Of a stretch of 33,407 bases of DNA, positions 20,700-28,953 are shown piece by piece. The stretch lies in contig JAKSBG010000318.1 of the NCBI GenBank assembly GCA_022361255.1, forward strand, positions 1 to 33,407. Direction: 5' to 3'. This stretch comes from Verrucomicrobiales bacterium. GTDB taxonomy: Bacteria; Verrucomicrobiota; Verrucomicrobiia; Verrucomicrobiales; DEV007. Every line of letters begins with the position of its first letter. The stretch's first letter is position 1. Below the pieces are notes generated by a model. That model made no database searches. It was not told the origin of the DNA and worked only from the letters and a program-made list of their open reading frames with translations. Made by a program: the position numbers and the translations under genes.

Positions 20700-22733
20700 T
20701 TACTTCTTGGCAATCACCCGCAAACGGCTGCGATCGCGCCCCACATGTGCAGATGATGATCTCAGGTCAAAACGCAGATTCTTCCGGACCCTGGACTTAC
20801 GACCGGTTCGCTTCACCCTGACGCGATAGGTCTCCCCCTCTCCATTTCGTAAGGCGGCAGCGGTATGCCCGCTCCCGGCAATGGCAGCGGTCAGGTTTGC
20901 CCTTCTGCCTGTCACGCGATGCACCTTGACCCGGAGATTTCTCTTTTTGATTTTTCCGCGCAGGGTCAAATCGTCCAGATCTCCATCGTTCGTGACTTTG
21001 AGGTAAGCGGATTTTTTCCGGCGCCCTTTCGGACGAACCGTAATTCTTTGCCCGCTTCCCGACACGCTGAAAAGGTCGTTTCCCCGCATCGTCGCCTCGT
21101 TGTTTCGCTTTCCAATAAGTTGATCAGGACGATACACTGCCTCCACCGCGCCGAGATCAGCGAGTGGACCGAAAGGACGGTTGCCCTCGCGGAGATCTTG
21201 GAAAGGAATGGTATCGTCGGTCATCGCGAGGCGGTCCAGAATTTCGGTTTCTCCCGGGAGCGGAACCCCGAACAGATGCTCATCGGGCCCGACGGGATCC
21301 GGTGTCAGATCAACCGGCACATCATCGGTTTCGAAATTTTCGCCGGCAAGAATGATCTCCGCTTCACCAAACGCCTCCCGGTGAGAGACCTCGCGGTTCA
21401 AACCGTTTGTGTTTCCTCCGAGAATTGAATTACGAATGGTGAGCTCAGCATCTCCGCCGACGACAATGGCTGAGTCATTCTGGTTCGGGTCGAAGTTCCC
21501 GACGATGGTTGAACTTTCAATGACCCCGTCACCGCCGAAGAGGTAGATCGCCGTTTCGCGATTTCCCGAGACGATGCAGTTTGTGAGAGCCAGCTGCCCT
21601 GCGGGAATCGGAAGAGAAAAAATTGCTCCTCCGTCACTGAGTGTGCCGGGATCGGCTCCGAATCCGAGGCCGGGGACTCCAGCCAGATTCTGATGGAAAA
21701 TCGCGCTCTGGATGATGAGATTTCCGCCGTAGTGAACGATGGCACCGCCGTGTCCGCCGCTCCCGTTCCGGCCCGATTGAGACATACCGCCATGCCCGGC
21801 TCTATTCCCTACAAACTTGAGTTGGAACAGTGAGACTCCGTTCCCGATGTAAAGGGCTCCGCCTTGACCTCCGGAGCCTCCGAGTCCGTCTCCGCTGTGC
21901 GCCCCGCCATTGCCGGCTTCATTTCCTGAAAACACCGTCTGGCCGAACCCAAAGAAAGAAGACTCATTAAAATAGACAGCACCTCCACTGCCGCCGGCCC
22001 CTGCATTTTCACCGTCAGTAGCTGAGCTTCCGCCATCGCCGGCGCGATTATCGCTGAATGCACTGGCTCCTCCCTCGCAGGCAAACAGAGCGAAGATGGC
22101 GCCGCCGTCACCGCCGTCTCCACCTTCAGTATCGGGGGAATCAAACCCGTCACCAGCCCGGTTGTTCTCGAACTCGGACTGCGAGAAGAAAAGGGATCCT
22201 TTTGTGTAGACCGCGCCACCGTCACCGCCACTGGGATTTATCTCCGATCCGTTTCCCGCCCGGTTATCCGCAAAGCGGCAGTCGACAAGGGTTACTATCG
22301 ACTCCGCGAAATTCATCGACCCGCCATCGTTGCCCCCTCCATCAGGGCCACGCCCATTGATAAATGTCATGCCGGTGATGTTGATGCGGGCTCCGTCACC
22401 GATCTGGACGAGGTGACGACTCGCGTTGTCCGCGTCGACTGTAATTCCATTTTCCAGATTCGACGCATCGATGTTCAGAACGGTGTTCGGATCCCGTACG
22501 GTAACCAGATTTCCAGTGGTCAGAGTGATCGTCTCCCCGTCGAGCGAGGCGTCGAACAAAATCGTGTGATCCGCGTCCGATGAAGCGAGGACCAGATTTT
22601 CCCGCAGGGATCCCGGGCCGCTGTCGTTTGTGTTCGTGACAGTGAAAATATCTGCCTGTGCGGATGCTGTCGTGAGGACCGCACCCATTAGAAGCATCGC
22701 AATGCTTCGTTTCGGTTTTCTTTTGGTATTCAT
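20700..22733 (-). CDS. Exported glycine-rich parallel beta-helix protein with basic C-terminal domain (paralog 1)
   Basis: A 677-residue protein from ATG 22733 with a signal peptide (KRSIAMLLMGAVLTTASAQA). The mature N-terminus ADIFTVTNTNDSGPGSLREN is the start often seen in exported right-handed beta-helix (polymorphic outer membrane protein-like) proteins. The middle (about 100-500) consists of about 20-30-residue rungs with repeats such as F-x-x-N-R-A-G-D/N-G followed by Gly/Asp-rich GGDGGDGGAIF, typical of loops outside a beta-helix. The last about 150 residues form a separate Arg/Lys-rich domain beginning LIGKRNNEATMRGND and containing VTNDGDLDDLTLRG. The gene at 26917 is a full-length paralog. 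The open frame extends upstream to 22832 but the ATG with a signal peptide is preferred. Role unknown: surface or extracellular structure, adhesin or sugar-binding are all possible. Confidence 0.87.
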   Translation of the reverse strand: MNTKRKPKRSIAMLLMGAVLTTASAQADIFTVTNTNDSGPGSLRENLVLASSDADHTILFDASLDGETITLTTGNLVTVRDPNTVLNIDASNLENGITVDADNASRHLVQIGDGARINITGMTFINGRGPDGGGNDGGSMNFAESIVTLVDCRFADNRAGNGSEINPSGGDGGAVYTKGSLFFSQSEFENNRAGDGFDSPDTEGGDGGDGGAIFALFACEGGASAFSDNRAGDGGSSATDGENAGAGGSGGAVYFNESSFFGFGQTVFSGNEAGNGGAHSGDGLGGSGGQGGALYIGNGVSLFQLKFVGNRAGHGGMSQSGRNGSGGHGGAIVHYGGNLIIQSAIFHQNLAGVPGLGFGADPGTLSDGGAIFSLPIPAGQLALTNCIVSGNRETAIYLFGGDGVIESSTIVGNFDPNQNDSAIVVGGDAELTIRNSILGGNTNGLNREVSHREAFGEAEIILAGENFETDDVPVDLTPDPVGPDEHLFGVPLPGETEILDRLAMTDDTIPFQDLREGNRPFGPLADLGAVEAVYRPDQLIGKRNNEATMRGNDLFSVSGSGQRITVRPKGRRKKSAYLKVTNDGDLDDLTLRGKIKKRNLRVKVHRVTGRRANLTAAIAGSGHTAAALRNGEGETYRVRVKRTGRKSRVRKNLRFDLRSSSAHVGRDRSRLRVIAKK

Positions 22734-22757
22734 GGAATGGTTGTGTTGGTTGTTGTG
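22734..22757 (-). promoter_or_regulatory. A/C-rich translation leader of beta-helix gene 1
   Basis: On the minus strand the bases just before ATG 22733 read CAACAACCAACACAACC then ATTCC. There is no Shine-Dalgarno sequence. The beta-helix gene at 26917 has an almost identical leader (CAACAACCAACCACACC then TTCC). Confidence 0.6.
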
Positions 22758-22769
22758 AAAAGGCACCCG

Positions 22770-22785
22770 TTCCGCGAACGCGGAA
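22770..22785. repeat. Perfect inverted repeat in the leader of beta-helix gene 1
   Basis: TTCCGCG-AA-CGCGGAA, seven paired bases around a two-base centre, located 37 bases upstream of ATG 22733 and downstream of the putative transcription start. It could be an operator or a leader hairpin. It is absent from the leader of paralog 2. Confidence 0.5.
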
Positions 22786-22796
22786 TTCGTGATGTC

Positions 22797-22831
22797 ACTC
22801 CCAACGAGGGGAATAGCCGGGATTCGTTTCA
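22797..22831 (-). promoter_or_regulatory. Putative ECF-type promoter of beta-helix gene 1 (element A)
   Basis: Minus strand: TGAAACG (22831-22825), 15 bases, CCTCG (22809-22805), then GGGAGT (22802-22797). The same block, ungapped and identical at about 26 of 35 positions, lies upstream of the paralog at 26861-26895. The spacing between TGAAACG and CCTnG fits -35 and -10 boxes of ECF sigma factors. Assignment to the neighbouring sigma gene is inference. Confidence 0.5.
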
Positions 22832-22916
22832 CATTTCCCCAAAAAAAGGTGAATCAGACTTTCCGGGAGATCTCCGCATGAGTTCCGGTCCCGGTTCGTC
22901 TCACCCGCCACCCCCT

Positions 22917-22953: not shown

Positions 22954-23694
22954 ATGAATGCTCCCGTCCGATCCGACAATCGTGAAAGCGGTCAGTTTCC
23001 TGATACCCGCTGGACAATCATACTTCAAAGTCAGGGAGAAGATGATGAGGCACGACAGCGTGCTCTCACCCACCTTTGCGAAGCCTACTGGTATCCGATC
23101 TATTGCTATGTCCGTCGGCGTGGATTGAGTCCCTCTGACGCAGAGGACTCCACCCAAAGCTTCTTCTGTGACCTTCTGGAAAAAGATCGTTTTCGACTGT
23201 TCTCGGAAGAGAAAGGCAAGCTTCGCGCCTACCTGCTGACCTCCATTAAGCGCTTTCTCCGTAACGAATGGGTCGCGAGCTGTGCGCAGAAGCGCGGGGG
23301 CGGGACGGCACCGCTGTCGCTCGATGCTGAACTGGCCGAGAAGCGATACGAGGTGGAACCTTCTGAATTTGCTTCACCGGAAAAACTCTTCGAAGTCCGC
23401 TGGGCTTTGACGGTATTGGAACGCGCTCTTGCGCGTGTCAGGGATCACTACATCACACAGGGAAAGGAGAAAATCTTTGAGCAGTTTCGCCACCACCTTA
23501 CCGGCGACGGGGACCTTTCTTTCCGTGACATCGGAACCGGACTGGGCGTCAGCGAAAGTTCTGCCCGGGTTATGCTTTTCAGAATGCGGAAACTCTACCG
23601 CAGCTGTATCGAAGAGGAAATCGGCGCGACGATCACGGACGGGGAATCCGTGCAGGAGGAGGTCGAGTATCTGAATCGTATTTTCGCCAACTAG
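22954..23694 (+). CDS. ECF-like RNA polymerase sigma factor
   Basis: A 246-residue sigma-70-family protein with only regions 2 and 4. After a short N-terminus with FPDTRWTIIL comes region 2 (about 38-110: LCEAYWYPIYCYVRRRGLSPSDAEDSTQSFF). Region 4 lies near 185-215, with a helix-turn-helix, FRDIGTGLGVSESSARVMLFRMRKLYR. The FPDTRW start and the downstream kinase gene are typical of ECF groups in Planctomycetes, Verrucomicrobia and Acidobacteria that are linked to serine/threonine kinases in place of membrane anti-sigma factors. A 30-residue extension follows region 4. The gene is followed after 9 bases by the kinase gene, so the two are co-transcribed, and it is divergent from beta-helix gene 1. 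It likely directs expression of neighbouring genes after activation by the kinase (inference). Confidence 0.92.
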   Translation: MNAPVRSDNRESGQFPDTRWTIILQSQGEDDEARQRALTHLCEAYWYPIYCYVRRRGLSPSDAEDSTQSFFCDLLEKDRFRLFSEEKGKLRAYLLTSIKRFLRNEWVASCAQKRGGGTAPLSLDAELAEKRYEVEPSEFASPEKLFEVRWALTVLERALARVRDHYITQGKEKIFEQFRHHLTGDGDLSFRDIGTGLGVSESSARVMLFRMRKLYRSCIEEEIGATITDGESVQEEVEYLNRIFAN

Positions 23695-23703
23695 GCATCG
23701 CAA

Positions 23704-24780
23704 ATGCCGGGCGAAGAGCAAGAAGGAATTCCGTGCCCGAAATGTGGCAAGTCGATCCCGCAGTGGGCTCCTGATGGCAACTGCCCGGCCTGCCTGTTTG
23801 GCTCCCCGATTCTTCCGGCTGCATCCGAAGACGACAACGGGGAGCGGGTTGGTGAATGGATCCTCCGGGAATCCATCGGCGAAGGCGCTTTCGGAATCGT
23901 CCACCTGGTCGAGCAACTCGATCCGGTTCACCGCGTGGGGGCGATGAAAATTCTCCGTCCCGGCCTGGTCACGCCGGCAGTTCTATCGAGATTCGAATCG
24001 GAATGCCAGGCTCTCGCCCTGCTCGACCATTCTAACATTGTCACCATTTATGAGGCGGGAAAGACCAATGATGAGAGGCCTTTTCTGGTCATGGAGTTCA
24101 TTGACGGTGTTCCGGTTACGGAAGCAGCTTCAGAGCTGAACTACGCGGAGACCATTGATCTCTTTGATCGGATCTGTGCAGCTGTGGCTTACGCGCACCA
24201 GAAAGGGGTGATTCATCGTGATCTCAAACCGGCAAACATTCTCGTTTCAAACGAACATTCCGGAAGCCTTGAGTTCAAGCTTCTCGATTTCGGCATCGCA
24301 CGCGCCTCCGGTAGCAGTGAATTCGAAACGACACTGCTCACGAGCGACGGTCAGTTTCTGGGAACCCCGGAATACATGAGCCCCGAGCAGGCTGCGGGCG
24401 ACCCTCTCGATGTGCGAACTGACGTCTTTTCTCTCGGGGTGCTGCTTTATGAAATGCTTTCGGGGAAAACGCCGCACCGTGTCGTGGATCGGTCTGTTGA
24501 AGGACTGGTGCAGTTTTTTCACGAAGTGAAGCAGGGCCGTGTCGCACCTCTGCCGACGAATCCGGGTGGGAGGGACCTCGATGCGATTACCGGAAAAGCG
24601 ATGCATCCCGATCCCTCGCAGCGCTACGGATCGGTGATGGAGCTGCGCGACGACCTGCAGCGCCTCAGGGAGAGGAAGCCGGTTCGGGCGCGTCGTCCGG
24701 ACCGCCTCTACCTCGCCGCGCGTTTTTTCAGCGTCATTGGAAATCTGTTTCGACGGCCTGCCTCTTTGCAGTCATTTTGA
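23704..24780 (+). CDS. Zinc-ribbon serine/threonine protein kinase (probably the N-terminal part of a split receptor kinase)
   Basis: A 358-residue protein. Residues 11-30 form a zinc ribbon (Cys11, 14, 27, 30: CPKC...CPAC). Residues about 52-320 are a Hanks-type kinase: glycine loop GEGAFG (59-64), ATP-binding Lys82 in AMKIL, catalytic Asp173 in IHRDLKPANIL, Mg-binding Asp195 in LLDFGIA, and the activation-segment end TPEYMSPEQ. All catalytic residues are intact. After LYLAARFF the frame ends in an unrelated tail and TGA at 24780. In the -1 frame the sequence continues with QRHWKSVSTACLFAVIL, a positively charged stop followed by a membrane helix, and then into the propeller protein. This is the usual kinase-transmembrane-sensor layout of such receptors. 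The switch point is the T TTT TTC heptamer at 24723-24729. Confidence 0.92.
   Translation: MPGEEQEGIPCPKCGKSIPQWAPDGNCPACLFGSPILPAASEDDNGERVGEWILRESIGEGAFGIVHLVEQLDPVHRVGAMKILRPGLVTPAVLSRFESECQALALLDHSNIVTIYEAGKTNDERPFLVMEFIDGVPVTEAASELNYAETIDLFDRICAAVAYAHQKGVIHRDLKPANILVSNEHSGSLEFKLLDFGIARASGSSEFETTLLTSDGQFLGTPEYMSPEQAAGDPLDVRTDVFSLGVLLYEMLSGKTPHRVVDRSVEGLVQFFHEVKQGRVAPLPTNPGGRDLDAITGKAMHPDPSQRYGSVMELRDDLQRLRERKPVRARRPDRLYLAARFFSVIGNLFRRPASLQSF
24723..24729 (+). promoter_or_regulatory. Candidate -1 ribosomal frameshift site (slippery heptamer) or frameshift lesion
   Basis: In the kinase frame the bases read CG-T-TTT-TTC-AGC, which is a canonical X-XXY-YYZ heptamer in the correct register. 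A -1 slip yields Phe-Phe-Gln-Arg-His-Trp and leads without a stop through a membrane helix into the 24777-26843 frame, giving a 1046-residue protein. Only a weak CTGC/GCAG hairpin (24758-24771) lies downstream, and the AGGGAGAGGA stretch (24667-24676) is about 46 bases upstream, too far for a typical stimulatory Shine-Dalgarno. A one-base deletion from a T7 run, real or a sequencing error, explains the same pattern. Confidence 0.5.
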
Positions 24781-26843
24781 CGGGAGCCACTTTGTTCAGT
24801 GCGAACCAGGCGCGTCTCGCGAAGAAGGCGGAGGCGAAGACGAAGTCGATCCTGGCGGAATCGGCATACACAGAAGCGGTGGAGAAAATTCGGGACGGAA
24901 ATCCGGCATCAGGCCTCGATCATCTCGTGCAGTCTCTTCAGACAAATCCGTCCCACGCCGAAGCCGCCCGGTTGTTTCGGGGAATCATAGCGATCTATGA
25001 AATTCCCAAATTCAGAAAGCTTGCCGGACCGGATGACTCCCTGATCAACTTTGCCATGAGAAAAGGCGACCGGATCTTGGCAGTGAGTGATGCCGGCATG
25101 TTCAAATGGAGGGGGCAGGAGTATCGTATCGGGGGAAGCCACCACTTCGTGGAAGCCGATCCCGGCAATCGGTGGGTGACCGTCTCGCCGCTGGAGGGTG
25201 GGCTCGGCATCTTCGATACGGAAGCAGGCAAACTCGCATCGGATCGCAAGATCCCCGGCACGCAGGTCAATGATGTCGATTTCCTCCACCATTCCCCCCA
25301 TCTCCTCGCTGCCAATTTTGAAAACGGCGTCGCGAAGGTCGACCTGACATCCGGTGAAGCGGTGTGGGTGTCGAATCTCCTGCTCCAGCCCGAAGCGGTT
25401 GCCGTTTCCCCTGACGATTCCCGGGCTTTCGTCGCGAGTAGCAGCGGCCTCCTCGCGCTTCTCGATACCGCTCACGGCAAGGTTCTGCGTGAGAATGTGA
25501 GGGCGGGAACACCGTTGGTCGGTCTGCACTCAGTCGAAGACGACAGCTGCCTTCTGATCGGGACCGCTGGACTCGAGATTCGTTCTTTCCGTGACCTTTC
25601 CCTTTTGCTGCGCGGCCCCCGGTATGCGGGAAAAAGAATCACACACGCCGTGTCTCCGACGGATCCTCTTGTTGCCGTCGCAAACGAAAAAGAGTGTCTC
25701 GTCTGGAACTATAAGACGGGAGAAACCGTTCTTCGAAAAGCACTCTCCGGACTTCCGGCGGCCATTGCCATTGCGGGCAGTGACCGCCCCTTTCTTGCGA
25801 TCGCCTACCGGCTCGAAGGGGTTGATGTCATCAACTACCGAACCGGCGAATTGCACACGACGCGCATACGTGATCTTTTCCATCCCGTCTCCCTGACGTT
25901 CGCACCAACGGGAAACCGTCTTTTCTGCGCGACGAGGGAGGCTAGCTTCATTGAGGTCGATTTGGGTGAGGGAAAACATCCACTTCAGCTGATAGATGAA
26001 TCTAACGATACTCCGAACTTTCGAGATGACCCCGCTGAACCAAAGGGAAGCATCCTGACGTTTTCGGGAAAGGTGGCAGGAAAACGCCTCGGCTACGCCG
26101 GTTATCGCGATGGCACGATTCACATTTGGGATTTGGACTCAGGGAAAAGTGTTCGGAGCTGGAAATCGAGCAGCTCCAGGCTTTCCGTTGGAACGCTTTC
26201 CCCGGACGGGACACATTTCGCCTGGCGCGATTCCTATCGGGCGATCCGCGTTCTAAATCTCACTACCGGGGAGACCATTCCCTATCCCGAAAAACACGAA
26301 AGAGACATCACTTCGGTAGCCTTCTCTCCCGATTCCGGAATGCTCGCGTCAGCCAACTACGAAGGCGTCGTTCGAGTGGCCTCGACATCCGGCGAACCGG
26401 GATCTGTGATCACGCTGCGTCACGATTTCTCAGGCGAAACCGCGCGCCACTTCTGTCGATTTTCATCGGACGGAGCTCTTCTCCTCAGCTGGGGTGGAAG
26501 TGATCAGGCTGTCAGAGTTTGGGACATTTCCCGCGAAGGGAAGGAAACCCTGACGATACGATCAAAGCTTCTTCCCGTCTCCGCCGACATCAGCCCGAAA
26601 AGAGAGCTCCTCGCAATGTTGCTGGAGACGTCGACAGGGAAGCAGACGATTGAAGTTCGTTCGGCGAGAACAAAGGAGCTTGTTCACCCACCGGTTTTCT
26701 GCACAGAGGTGGACAAAATATCATTCGATGCGCAGGGCCATTTTCTGATCCTCGACGGATCGGTTATGCAAAGAATGAGAATACCCGCAGCAACGCCGGT
26801 CGATCCGGCCAGCCTGCGGGAGTGGGGGTCGGCCGTTCCGTAA
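24777..26843 (+). CDS. WD40-like beta-propeller sensor (probably the C-terminal part of the receptor kinase)
   Basis: The frame is open without interruption to TAA at 26843; the first possible start inside it near the kinase stop is TTG 24777, overlapping the kinase TGA, with no Shine-Dalgarno. Starting there would cut a membrane helix in half. Reading from the slippery site gives the complete helix (VSTACLFAVILTGATLFSA). A charged linker helix (QARLAKKAEAKTKSILAES) and a short TPR-like region (about 30 residues, GLDHLVQSLQTNPSHAEAARLF) follow. Then come about 600 residues of WD40-like blades, with repeats such as AVAVSPDDSRAFVASSSGLLALLDT, IHIWDLDSGKSVRSW and SVAFSPDSGMLASANYEG. The propeller would lie outside the cytoplasm as the sensing part of the kinase. 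I list it separately because the reading frames differ, but the most likely intact product is the fusion of both. Confidence 0.85.
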   Translation: MTGATLFSANQARLAKKAEAKTKSILAESAYTEAVEKIRDGNPASGLDHLVQSLQTNPSHAEAARLFRGIIAIYEIPKFRKLAGPDDSLINFAMRKGDRILAVSDAGMFKWRGQEYRIGGSHHFVEADPGNRWVTVSPLEGGLGIFDTEAGKLASDRKIPGTQVNDVDFLHHSPHLLAANFENGVAKVDLTSGEAVWVSNLLLQPEAVAVSPDDSRAFVASSSGLLALLDTAHGKVLRENVRAGTPLVGLHSVEDDSCLLIGTAGLEIRSFRDLSLLLRGPRYAGKRITHAVSPTDPLVAVANEKECLVWNYKTGETVLRKALSGLPAAIAIAGSDRPFLAIAYRLEGVDVINYRTGELHTTRIRDLFHPVSLTFAPTGNRLFCATREASFIEVDLGEGKHPLQLIDESNDTPNFRDDPAEPKGSILTFSGKVAGKRLGYAGYRDGTIHIWDLDSGKSVRSWKSSSSRLSVGTLSPDGTHFAWRDSYRAIRVLNLTTGETIPYPEKHERDITSVAFSPDSGMLASANYEGVVRVASTSGEPGSVITLRHDFSGETARHFCRFSSDGALLLSWGGSDQAVRVWDISREGKETLTIRSKLLPVSADISPKRELLAMLLETSTGKQTIEVRSARTKELVHPPVFCTEVDKISFDAQGHFLILDGSVMQRMRIPAATPVDPASLREWGSAVP

Positions 26844-26916: not shown

Positions 26917-28953
26917 ATGAAATCAATCATTCCAACATCACCCCTACTGTTCTCACTGGCGCTGCTGCTTTCCGGCAAGCTTGCGGCCGGAGAGTTTCTT
27001 GTCACCAATACCGAAGATGATGGAGCCGGTTCCCTTCGCGATGCGATCGCACAGTGCGAAGCCGAAGAGGAGAATACGATCCGCTTCGAAGCAGCTTTGA
27101 ACGGGCAAACGATAGCAGTCGAATCCGGTGAAATACGGCAGACCATTCAAAATGGCGGCAGCCTTACCATTACCGCAGCGGATCTCCCAGACGGAATCAC
27201 ACTGGATGCGCAGGGGAGCAGCCGCGTTCTCCGGTTTGATGGAAGCGATGGTTTTATTGAGCTGATTCATCTCACCATCACCGGGGGACAGGCTCCTCAT
27301 GGCGGAAGCGCCATGTCGGACGGTGGAGGCGTAAAGAGCGGTTCTCTGATCCGGGCAGAAGACTGCACTTTTACCGGGAACCGCGCCGGTGACGGTTCCG
27401 ACGGGCATCGCCGTGCGGGCAGCGGCGGTGCGATTCTTGCTGCCAGCGACATCACGGTTTTGAACTGCACTTTTCGCGACAATCACGCGGGGAACGCCCT
27501 CATTCAGGGAGACGTGGGTTCCATCGCTGGAGGAGACGGAGGTGCCATTTTCGTTTCCTCCACCGGAACCACTACCGTGTCGGACTGTCTGTTTGAAAAC
27601 AATTCTGCCGGTCGCGGCAGCGAAACCGACTCTCCTGCGAGCCGCGCCGGATACGGAGGCAGCGGCGGGGCCGTTCATGCCGGTCACAATACGACTCAGG
27701 TGAGCAGCAGCCTTTTCCGGAACAACCGTGCCGGAAGCGGAGGAATCAATACCTCCTCGGGGGACGGAGGGATCGGTGGTGCTGCAGGTGCTATCACGGC
27801 AGCTCACACCCAGGTGATGATCACCGACTCAGTATTTCTCGGAAACTTTTCCGGAGACGGGGGCTCTTCAAACGGGGGAGAGAGCGGAAACAGTGGTGAA
27901 GCGGGAGCGGTCCGCGTTTTCGGATTGGCCAATGCGCTCATTCAACGCTGCATCTTTGATCGCAACCAGCTCGGCGTTCCCGGCGCGGTCGTAAACGGGG
28001 GAACACCCGGCTCTCTCCAGGAGGGGGCTGCCGTATACGTCGAGGTCGGAGATGAAAACAGTCTCTTCATCGAAAATTGCGTAGTTTCCCGGAGTGAGGG
28101 AATTGGCGTTTACAGCCAGGGTGGGGTCAGCCAGGCCGTTCACTGCACTTTTGCAGGGAACCGAAGCAATACGGGCGCGGCACTGACATCAGGATTCGCG
28201 AACCAGACTGCCGCTATCAATTGCCTGTTTACCGATAACCGGAACGGCGAGACCCCGGCCCACTTCGGGAGCATTGGGACCGGAATGATCCTCGCCGACC
28301 CGGGAGAATTCGTGCGCGAGGAACCCTCGGTCGATCTGGCAACCAACCCTGTCGCACCCGACGGTAGGCACGCAGCGACGAATTTCGGAATCCCGTTCCC
28401 CGGATCTTCCGCTATCGATACCGCGCCTGAAAACATTTTTGCCCCGGCCGATGACCTCCGTGGAAATCTTCGTGAAGACGGAGCGCGTGACTTCGGGGCC
28501 GTCGAAGTGTCCTATCAAGTTGATAACCGGATCGGAAAACGGTCCAATCCGGCAACACATCGGGGCAATGACGTTTACTCCGCTGTTGCGGCCGTTCAGC
28601 AGGAGAAAATCAAGCTCCGGGGCAATCGCAAGCGGTCACGATACGTGTCGATCGAAAACGATGGCGATCTGGATCACCTCCGTCTCCGCGGAGGCCGCGG
28701 CGGCGGCAAACTGAAAACCAAAACCTACCGCCTCAGTGGAGGGCGCCGAAATGTTACAGGCGCCTGTCGTGGCGCGGGATATCTTGCCGAAAATGTTCCC
28801 GGCCAAAGCAAGGTTGTTTTCAAAGTTCAGGCCAGGGCGAAACGCAGAAGAAATCCACGGCGCTTCAATCGCAATGTCGATTACCAACTCACCTCCGCTT
28901 CCGATGCCACCCTGATCGACCGTGTTCGGGCCAGGGTGAAATACCGGCCGTGA
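26917..28953 (+). CDS. Exported glycine-rich parallel beta-helix protein with basic C-terminal domain (paralog 2)
   Basis: A 678-residue protein with a signal peptide (LLFSLALLLSGKLAAG) and the mature start EFLVTNTEDDGAGSLRDAI, matching that of paralog 1. Beta-helix rungs occupy about residues 90-480 with the same NRAGDGS / GGSGGAVHAG type loops rich in Gly, Asp and Asn. A short linker resembling FGIPFPGSSAID and FGAVEVSYQVD follows, as in paralog 1. The final about 140 residues are the shared basic domain (RIGKRSNPATHRGND, IENDGDLDHLRLRGG, then an Arg/Lys-dense segment). The two proteins have the same length to within one residue and the same domain order. It is downstream of the sigma/kinase/propeller genes on the same strand with its own apparent promoter, and a terminator follows at 28992-29022. 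Confidence 0.88.
   Translation: MKSIIPTSPLLFSLALLLSGKLAAGEFLVTNTEDDGAGSLRDAIAQCEAEEENTIRFEAALNGQTIAVESGEIRQTIQNGGSLTITAADLPDGITLDAQGSSRVLRFDGSDGFIELIHLTITGGQAPHGGSAMSDGGGVKSGSLIRAEDCTFTGNRAGDGSDGHRRAGSGGAILAASDITVLNCTFRDNHAGNALIQGDVGSIAGGDGGAIFVSSTGTTTVSDCLFENNSAGRGSETDSPASRAGYGGSGGAVHAGHNTTQVSSSLFRNNRAGSGGINTSSGDGGIGGAAGAITAAHTQVMITDSVFLGNFSGDGGSSNGGESGNSGEAGAVRVFGLANALIQRCIFDRNQLGVPGAVVNGGTPGSLQEGAAVYVEVGDENSLFIENCVVSRSEGIGVYSQGGVSQAVHCTFAGNRSNTGAALTSGFANQTAAINCLFTDNRNGETPAHFGSIGTGMILADPGEFVREEPSVDLATNPVAPDGRHAATNFGIPFPGSSAIDTAPENIFAPADDLRGNLREDGARDFGAVEVSYQVDNRIGKRSNPATHRGNDVYSAVAAVQQEKIKLRGNRKRSRYVSIENDGDLDHLRLRGGRGGGKLKTKTYRLSGGRRNVTGACRGAGYLAENVPGQSKVVFKVQARAKRRRNPRRFNRNVDYQLTSASDATLIDRVRARVKYRP

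Follow-up and report, generated by a model that had tools for sequence, protein, structure and literature searches.

The window analysed in this study is a stretch of 33,407 nucleotides from a Verrucomicrobiales bacterium (assembly GCA_022361255.1, contig JAKSBG010000318.1), in which two genes encode beta-helix proteins ending in the same strongly basic module, here termed the cationic C-terminal domain (CTD). This domain is an undescribed immunoglobulin-like (Ig-like) beta-sandwich of about 145 residues, in which the core of remote relatives is kept and many variable columns are filled with arginine or lysine. It recurs at the very end of dozens of otherwise unrelated proteins of the same genome, most of which begin with a signal peptide-like stretch, and we tentatively propose, by analogy with a known system, that it may serve as an electrostatic anchor to an anionic polymer of the cell surface.

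The two carrier genes and their shared domain

An earlier note on the window had claimed that two beta-helix proteins share a basic C-terminal domain, and this is confirmed by the comparison of the two copies, which are 38% identical and both contain the motifs IGKR(N/S)N.AT.RGND and NDGDLD.L.LRG. Copies 1 and 2 hold 39 and 35 lysine plus arginine residues and 10 aspartate plus glutamate residues each, giving isoelectric points (pI) of 11.98 and 11.57, as against 4.36 and 4.50 for the remainder of the respective carriers. The full-length carriers can be aligned by BLASTP across 658 columns (E 2e-73). The features concerned are as follows:

20700-22832, minus strand: gene of carrier 1, 710 residues as listed from a GTG start; stop codon at 20700-20702
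22653-22733, minus strand: signal peptide-like stretch of carrier 1 (own heuristic, end of the stretch set by eye)
21156-22650, minus strand: Gly- and Asp-rich repeats of carrier 1, judged beta-helix-like from their alignment with carrier 2
20703-21146, minus strand: CTD copy 1, the stretch of the earlier note (profile matches 20703-21116, 20703-21146 and 20706-21149)
26917-28953, plus strand: gene of carrier 2, 678 residues
26917-26991, plus strand: signal peptide-like stretch of carrier 2 (own heuristic, end set by eye)
27331-27765, plus strand: right-handed beta-helix, residues 139-283 of carrier 2 (PF13229, E 3.1e-8, 33.8 bits against a cut-off of 25.9)
28399-28509, plus strand: choice-of-anchor Q-like stretch, residues 495-531 of carrier 2 (NF041518, 21.8 bits, below the curated cut-off of 25)
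28501-28950, plus strand: CTD copy 2 (profile matches 28531-28950, 28501-28947 and 28498-28947)

From IGKR to the end of the protein copy 1 comprises 138 residues (20703-21116), and copy 2 makes up the final 140 residues of carrier 2 (28531-28950); the homologous block begins slightly before IGKR, near 21146-21149 in copy 1 and from about 28501 in copy 2, where the choice-of-anchor Q-like stretch directly precedes it. Carrier 1, in which no Pfam model scored above its cut-off, more likely starts at the ATG of residue 34 (base 22733), which fits a signal peptide better than the listed GTG.

Occurrence in the genome of the window and in a sister genome

The genome to which the window belongs (5.85 Mb in 548 contigs, 95.7% complete) contains 30 places that are matched at E < 0.002 by a profile of the two window sequences, including these two themselves, and 36 places matched at E <= 0.01 by a 30-row profile, one of them a fragment of 42 columns where a contig ends; the similarity of the two CTDs is therefore far beyond chance. 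With 35 ORFs bearing the domain, two of which run off their contigs, the extent of the family had been understated by the earlier note, which spoke of two proteins and proposed the profile search.

The position of the domain is strict. All 33 carriers of this genome with a complete 3' end have it as their last part, with 1-21 residues remaining after the match, and the same is true of all 26 carriers sampled from the sister genome G219 (1-41 residues after the match), the regions having been picked among the better-scoring of its 62 copies. No carrier with two copies was found in the genome of the window or in the G219 sample. A pattern search (G(N/D)(N/D)xYNxxGxGQ, with each species represented by a single genome) led to 68 loci, and the domain is encoded in 58 of them; the genus copies among these, some of which are G219 copies again, are terminal in all 41 cases with the stop codon in view, and one further copy is cut.

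Equally consistent is the charge. Net charge averages +27.6 in the genome of the window (range +13 to +39, n=33) and +22.0 in G219 (+13 to +32, n=26), to be compared with a mean of -2.1 (standard deviation 7.4) for the last 140 residues of 93 other ORFs, only six of which have a charge of at least +10, the highest being +20. On average the upstream parts are acidic, with means per 140 residues of -11.3 (range -23.0 to +3.0, 33 carriers) and of -10.6 in G219.

This combination of acidic upstream parts and strongly basic CTDs within the same molecules, seen in the window pair as pI values of 4.4 and 4.5 against 12.0 and 11.6, is what would be expected if each CTD attached to an acidic helix or propeller of an adjacent molecule and charge pairing thereby assembled a coat or biofilm matrix, an idea close to one in the earlier note. 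We nevertheless consider such a matrix quite unlikely: many bacteria export acidic proteins, and the acidic half calls for no special explanation, while some carriers have no acidic partner half at all, being little more than a signal peptide followed by a CTD. Examples of the latter are L043 (a 224-residue frame, with a signal peptide that is lipobox-like by eye), G198:C235 (192 residues) and G218:C147 (193 residues), and their existence implies that the domain may work by itself.

The upstream parts are otherwise diverse. In lists giving the best 25 of 48 and the best 25 of 36 families, none occurs in more than three of the 35 carriers of this genome: fn3 and choice-of-anchor Q are found in three each, subtilase, NHL, MauG-like, PKD and beta-helix parts in two each, and animal-type haem peroxidase, FG-GAP, choice-of-anchor I and RHS in single cases. 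Of the 47 carriers whose 5' end is complete, 42 have a start resembling a signal peptide according to our own heuristic (23 of 26 in the genome of the window and 19 of 21 in G219), compared with 32 of 93 control ORFs of at least 200 residues from the same loci, and two of the three misses in the former genome (L041 and L048) have a hydrophobic start when judged by eye. The claim that the carriers are exported is thus upheld by this measure, and they do not look cytoplasmic. A sorting or attachment role, also suggested earlier, agrees with the way in which a single copy stands at the extreme end of each protein, after unrelated domains.

In G219 several CTD genes lie close together on two contigs, C38 (L206, L209, L213 and L300) and C46 (L210 and L212), those on C46 being frames of about 910-930 residues.

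Fold, charge pattern and known families

An AlphaFold2 model of the window CTD (20703-21152), calculated from an alignment of this sequence with 81 others of the window and the pattern-found loci, is a beta-sandwich of nine strands and one short helix (mean pLDDT 95.5, pTM 0.89). Its neighbours in the PDB are Ig-like sandwiches of many sorts with many near-ties, including the N-terminal part of a GH123 protein (8k2h; VIA-align Z 11.1, 134 aligned residues, 3.2 A), an integrin hybrid domain (Z 9.9, 108 aligned, 2.4 A) and the N-terminal domain of PorA (6kjk; Z 9.7, 121 of 134 aligned, 3.2 A); identity to these is only 10-11%, which indicates a common fold and gives no evidence for a common function. 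The beta-sandwich anticipated by the earlier note is accordingly seen in the model, and relatives repeated in tandem are present in long proteins of other phyla.

Across phyla (102 genus copies and 56 others) the core columns are D11, G25, Y29, Q36, N56-D57, T89 and D141, of which D11, Q36, N56-D57, T89 and D141 are not basic. Lysine or arginine occupies nine columns of the genus alignment at 70% or more and 37 at 30-70%, each domain having 32 such residues, and a charge spread in this way over many moderately basic columns fits a contact of the charge type better than one fixed basic site.

No Pfam model matches the window CTD above its cut-off, the best being PF21568 with 18.4 bits against 27.8, and no NCBIfam family matches it at E <= 0.1, so that no family with another function was found for it. 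When 30 members from the same genome were compared with Pfam, 21 families gave any match at E <= 1; other single members show scattered weak matches in Pfam and NCBIfam. DUF11 (PF01345) weakly matches ten of 82 family members (best E 3.8e-5), and did not match the window CTD at E <= 0.1. DUF11 and other bacterial Ig-like repeats resemble the CTD in being beta-sandwich repeats, and the tandem relatives may be partly visible to DUF11, but the CTD family has core motifs of its own, PD...GNNxYN..G.GQ...NDG...(N/D)(V/I)T...D. Choice-of-anchor T (NF041740), which gives weak matches in 12 of the 82 members (best E 1.9e-5), was rejected: among ten members scanned singly two matched, with 16.8 and 11.9 bits over 22-27 residues where more than 70 bits for the whole protein are needed.

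A sequence search of solved structures with the genus profile yielded no relative, and with a wider profile 12 chains at E <= 10, the best a designed Fn3 fusion (1.1e-5) and the others at 0.14 or worse. In the open-licence literature of PubMed Central no paper containing the motif letters was found, and the titles and opening lines of abstracts listed there had nothing on the CTD. We file the domain as a new family of C-terminal display tag with a supercharged Ig-like scaffold, the type of tag itself being known.

Remote relatives outside the genus

A profile built only from copies of the genome of the window recognises distant relatives, such as those in Candidatus Zipacnadia (L154, acidic and in tandem, 3e-25) and Nocardioides (L130, 8e-29). 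Among cultured Nocardioides, N. pocheonensis has three copies and N. immobilis one. Outside the genus 42 internal copies were found in 12 loci, mostly in tandem, with a mean net charge of -5.3 and one of the 42 at +5 or more; these acidic relatives belong to long proteins of Armatimonadota, WOR-3 and others. Twelve copies in 12 loci are terminal, with a mean net charge of +7.0 and eight of the 12 at +5 or more, and come from three Nocardioidaceae, three other Actinomycetota, four Chloroflexi (three from one metagenome-assembled genome, MAG) and two Verrucomicrobia. Two further copies are cut.

The prevalence of internal, often tandem copies, as in stalks, among the relatives raises the question of whether the CTD merely caps its proteins or forms a stalk, as a peculiarity of this lineage unconnected with sorting. 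Its basic surface would then be due to drift or would constitute a module for sulfated algal polysaccharide or extracellular DNA. Sulfatase genes adjoin one short CTD gene and lie two genes away from another, in agreement with this idea, to which we give little credence: in all 33 and all 26 complete carriers of the two genomes the domain is strictly last, with no internal copy, and no polysaccharide-degrading family is among the upstream families listed, except for a GH85 C-terminal domain model in two of the 35 carriers.

In a tree of the domain (132 rows) the 76 genus copies form one well supported group (SH-aLRT 99), and place within the protein takes two changes and charge class four; that terminal place and basic charge arose together as repeated independent events is not borne out by this tree. 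Within the otherwise basic genus clade, the CTDs of JAEUHI (L129) and JAGRPC (L173) form a near-neutral pair with net charges of 0 and +1, which is a natural test of the need for charge. Five tandem copies on a contig named as 'Rhizobium sp. Q54' MAG (CAMBVS010000071.1, L133) group with an Armatimonadetes copy, and the contig is perhaps wrongly binned or named, or transferred.

Distribution in the genus and the phylum

Among 33 genomes of the genus, scanned with an 82-row profile at E <= 1e-3, the CTD is present in 15, eight of which have 64, 62, 44, 39, 38, 35, 27 and 26 copies and seven of which have 1-8 (four of the latter being only 53-79% complete). The other 18 have none, five of these being 52-86% complete. 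When the count is restricted to a completeness of 90% or more and a contamination of 5% or less, the domain is found in ten of 23 genomes. Copy-bearing members include PAAG01 (NAT23), CAJXQE01, JARGNG01, JAEUHI01 and JAGRPC01, which are Verrucomicrobiales or Verrucomicrobiia MAGs. A scan at E <= 1 gave single matches at 0.06 and 0.16 in the zero-copy genomes G197 and G212, and at 0.2 and 0.04 in G232 and G233 of other genera.

In the phylum, the 30-row model found the domain in one of 194 genomes, that of the window (with no more than 20 candidates scored in each), and a wider model at E <= 1e-3 in 11 of 387 including it (up to ten candidates scored per genome); apart from this genome and G422, the matches are weak (1.5e-7 to 5e-4). 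The copy in G422, a member of another family of the phylum, is strong (G422:C6:42628-43065, L185, 1.6e-26) and lies in an open frame of 10,950 residues. An early scan of genome contigs with the two-row alignment had found no relative.

An RpoB tree was obtained for 25 of the 33 genus genomes (the short row of G194 and seven genomes with no match were left out). Presence and absence of the CTD takes six changes on this tree, at least four of them on well supported branches, and zero-copy groups branch between the high-copy G219/G198 and G000/G218; absence is at most weakly clustered, as few changes being needed by 32 of 500 label shuffles. In eight of the 35 carriers of the genome of the window, the upstream part and the CTD both find their best match in the same sister protein. 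With the identities of upstream part and CTD in brackets, these pairs are L032 with L207 (54% and 64%), L050 with L206 (63% and 51%), L036 with L219 (36% and 45%), L056 with L224 (42% and 37%) and L031 with L214, all in G219, L046 and L034 with L147 and L152 of G198, and L042 with L161 of G218 (58% and 52%); they are one-way best matches within a sample of sister carriers. The simplest reading is that an old set of carriers was lost whole several times, and the joint loss of dozens of tags is to be expected if all of them need one common partner.

Comparison with known export and sorting systems

The same footprint, in which a genome has either no copies or many, the carriers resemble each other chiefly in their C-terminal region and a signal peptide stands in front, is known from the PEP-CTERM/exosortase and GlyGly-CTERM/rhombosortase tags, described in the cited passages as sorting signals that each have a single partner (PMC1569441, PMC3237569). 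The main alternative to a surface anchor is that the CTD could be the recognition signal of a dedicated and so far unrecognised outer-membrane export or sorting machine, its charge aiding recognition and the tag perhaps being cleaved. The anatomy is that of known sorting tags, with a signal peptide, diverse upstream parts and one terminal homology domain, in many copies if any; the spread within the genus is all-or-none; and an Ig-like sandwich also forms the C-terminal domain of type IX secretion system (T9SS) cargo (PMC4804311).

The T9SS itself was rejected as the machine, since its translocon protein SprA (PF14349) was found in none of the 33 genus genomes and none of 14 control genomes, and in both of two Bacteroidota used as positive control. 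The T9SS sorting-domain model TIGR04183 did not match the window CTD at E <= 0.1; in the wider family it matched one member out of 82, at 0.0037. With the T9SS domains (TIGR04183/TIGR04131) the CTD shares a terminal Ig-like sandwich, many cargo proteins and a signal peptide in front, the cited account giving some 30 cargo proteins per genome for T9SS, likewise with a signal peptide (PMC4804311). It is, however, far more basic and about twice as long, at about 145-150 residues and nine strands compared with the 73 residues and seven strands described there for RgpB, and unlike the T9SS domain it is related to domains of Nocardioides and Chloroflexi and, in other groups, to tandem copies lying inside proteins.

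PEP-CTERM matches above the cut-off occur in 13 of the 33 genus genomes, namely four of eight high-copy, three of seven low-copy and six of 18 zero-copy ones, and their counts are unrelated to those of the CTD. Exosortase was not found in G218 (93% complete, 38 copies), where PEP-CTERM above the cut-off was also not found, in G213 (96% complete, eight copies) or in G206 (27 copies), in which it was likely missed because this genome is 84% complete and has five PEP-CTERM matches; G000 gave a partial exosortase match only. PEP-CTERM and GlyGly-CTERM tags consist of a short motif, a transmembrane helix and a basic cluster; the CTD is a folded domain, and is present in G218. By eye the PEP motif with helix and basic cluster is absent from the window CTDs and from the aligned copies of the same genome. 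Dependence on exosortase/PEP-CTERM, or replacement of one by the other, is unsupported by these counts, by the misses in G218 and G213 and by the comparison of upstream parts given below. G201, G205, G210 and G224 (L262-L291) encode PEP-CTERM-like proteins with lengths of about 1000-2400 residues, many of which end alike in ...ITLTAVPEP; they point to another family of very large surface proteins, distinct from the CTD carriers.

SprA is thus missing throughout, G218 carries 38 CTDs with neither exosortase nor PEP-CTERM detected, and no gene of such a machine is seen beside the short CTD genes. The same terminal domain also occurs in Nocardioides and Chloroflexi, which are usually counted as single-membraned. 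For these reasons we hold a dedicated export machine to be somewhat unlikely. In a more specific form of this idea, which in our view is unlikely, Verrucomicrobiales would possess an unrecognised pathway for outer-membrane export and surface sorting, independent of T9SS and exosortase, whose machinery is gained and lost as a unit and whose substrates, as many as about 65 in a genome, bear the CTD as their tag.

Proposed function

That the CTD anchors its carriers electrostatically, by their C-terminus, to an anionic polymer of the surface appears to us quite possible, if a little short of probable. This interpretation starts from what was observed directly, namely the domain, its place, the export signal as seen by our heuristic, its charge and its spread. 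Beyond these we infer a location at the surface, a ligand, a crossing of the outer membrane and the loss of whole sets: carriers would leave the cytoplasm via Sec and then pass to the surface, where the CTD, with its charge of +13 to +39, would bind lipopolysaccharide, capsule or another acidic exopolysaccharide and so display the mostly acidic N-terminal part. Loss of the polymer, or of the partner placing the tag, would have led a genome to lose all its carriers together.

The precedent is provided by the S-layer proteins of the Lactobacillus acidophilus group, whose conserved C-terminal domain, according to the cited passages, is positively charged and attaches to anionic polymers of the cell wall (PMC2571106), and this example of binding through charge leads us to favour an electrostatic surface anchor. 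Both systems combine a positively charged conserved C-terminus with exported proteins that are variable elsewhere (PMC2571106). They differ in that the Lactobacillus domain belongs to a Gram-positive wall, whereas here an Ig-like sandwich of about 145 residues sits on dozens of unrelated proteins and its binding is predicted from charge; the S-layer C-terminal family is not among the 21 Pfam families matching the 30 members at E <= 1.

A number of points weigh against such an anchor. The passage through the outer membrane, which is required in a diderm, is left unexplained by it. Some terminal copies are not basic (L136 at -10, L121 and L129 at 0, L173 at +1). The link between place and charge holds family-wide but comprises one well supported independent pair (two when all branches are counted), and with almost no independent repeats the association is no statistical test. 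Net charge is no tighter than chance, with a variance of 43 compared with 25 in column shuffles, although the former figure is inflated by the relatedness of the copies; selection for a fixed total charge is accordingly unsupported. Single-gene transfer, in place of whole-set loss, may also account for the distribution, the matches to sister carriers being one-way best hits in a sample.

No swap of anchors was seen either: none of 35 PEP-CTERM-like ORFs (five of which look by eye like chance frames and one of which was counted twice), taken from 40 regions of seven genomes, six zero-copy and one, G201, with one copy, and representing part of all matches, shares its upstream part with any of 98 CTD proteins. 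Finally, the short CTD genes compared have no common neighbour, apart from the sulfatases near two of them, and sulfatases are a common family; in loci L297 and L298 of this comparison the CTD ORF itself was not picked up.

Other genes of the window

Between the two CTD genes lies a cassette that begins with a protein of 246 residues (22954-23694, plus strand), which has no Pfam match at E <= 0.001 and which we take, by eye, to resemble an extracytoplasmic-function sigma factor. It stands upstream of a Ser/Thr kinase ORF (PF00069; 23704-24780, plus strand) and a WD40-repeat ORF (24777-26843, plus strand), which overlap by four bases in different frames and look like a single kinase-WD40 protein split by a frameshift, whether real or an assembly error.

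Implications

Should the CTD prove to be a surface anchor, one unnamed domain would hold a large exported set of the genus, dozens of unassigned proteins per genome could be placed at the cell surface, and a cationic, non-covalent form of protein display would be present in diderm bacteria. As genomes of the genus mostly have 26-64 copies or none, the partner, be it a polymer pathway or an export machine, can be searched for by comparing gene content, an approach which, in the cited passages, found the exosortase and rhombosortase partners of earlier tags (PMC1569441, PMC3237569).

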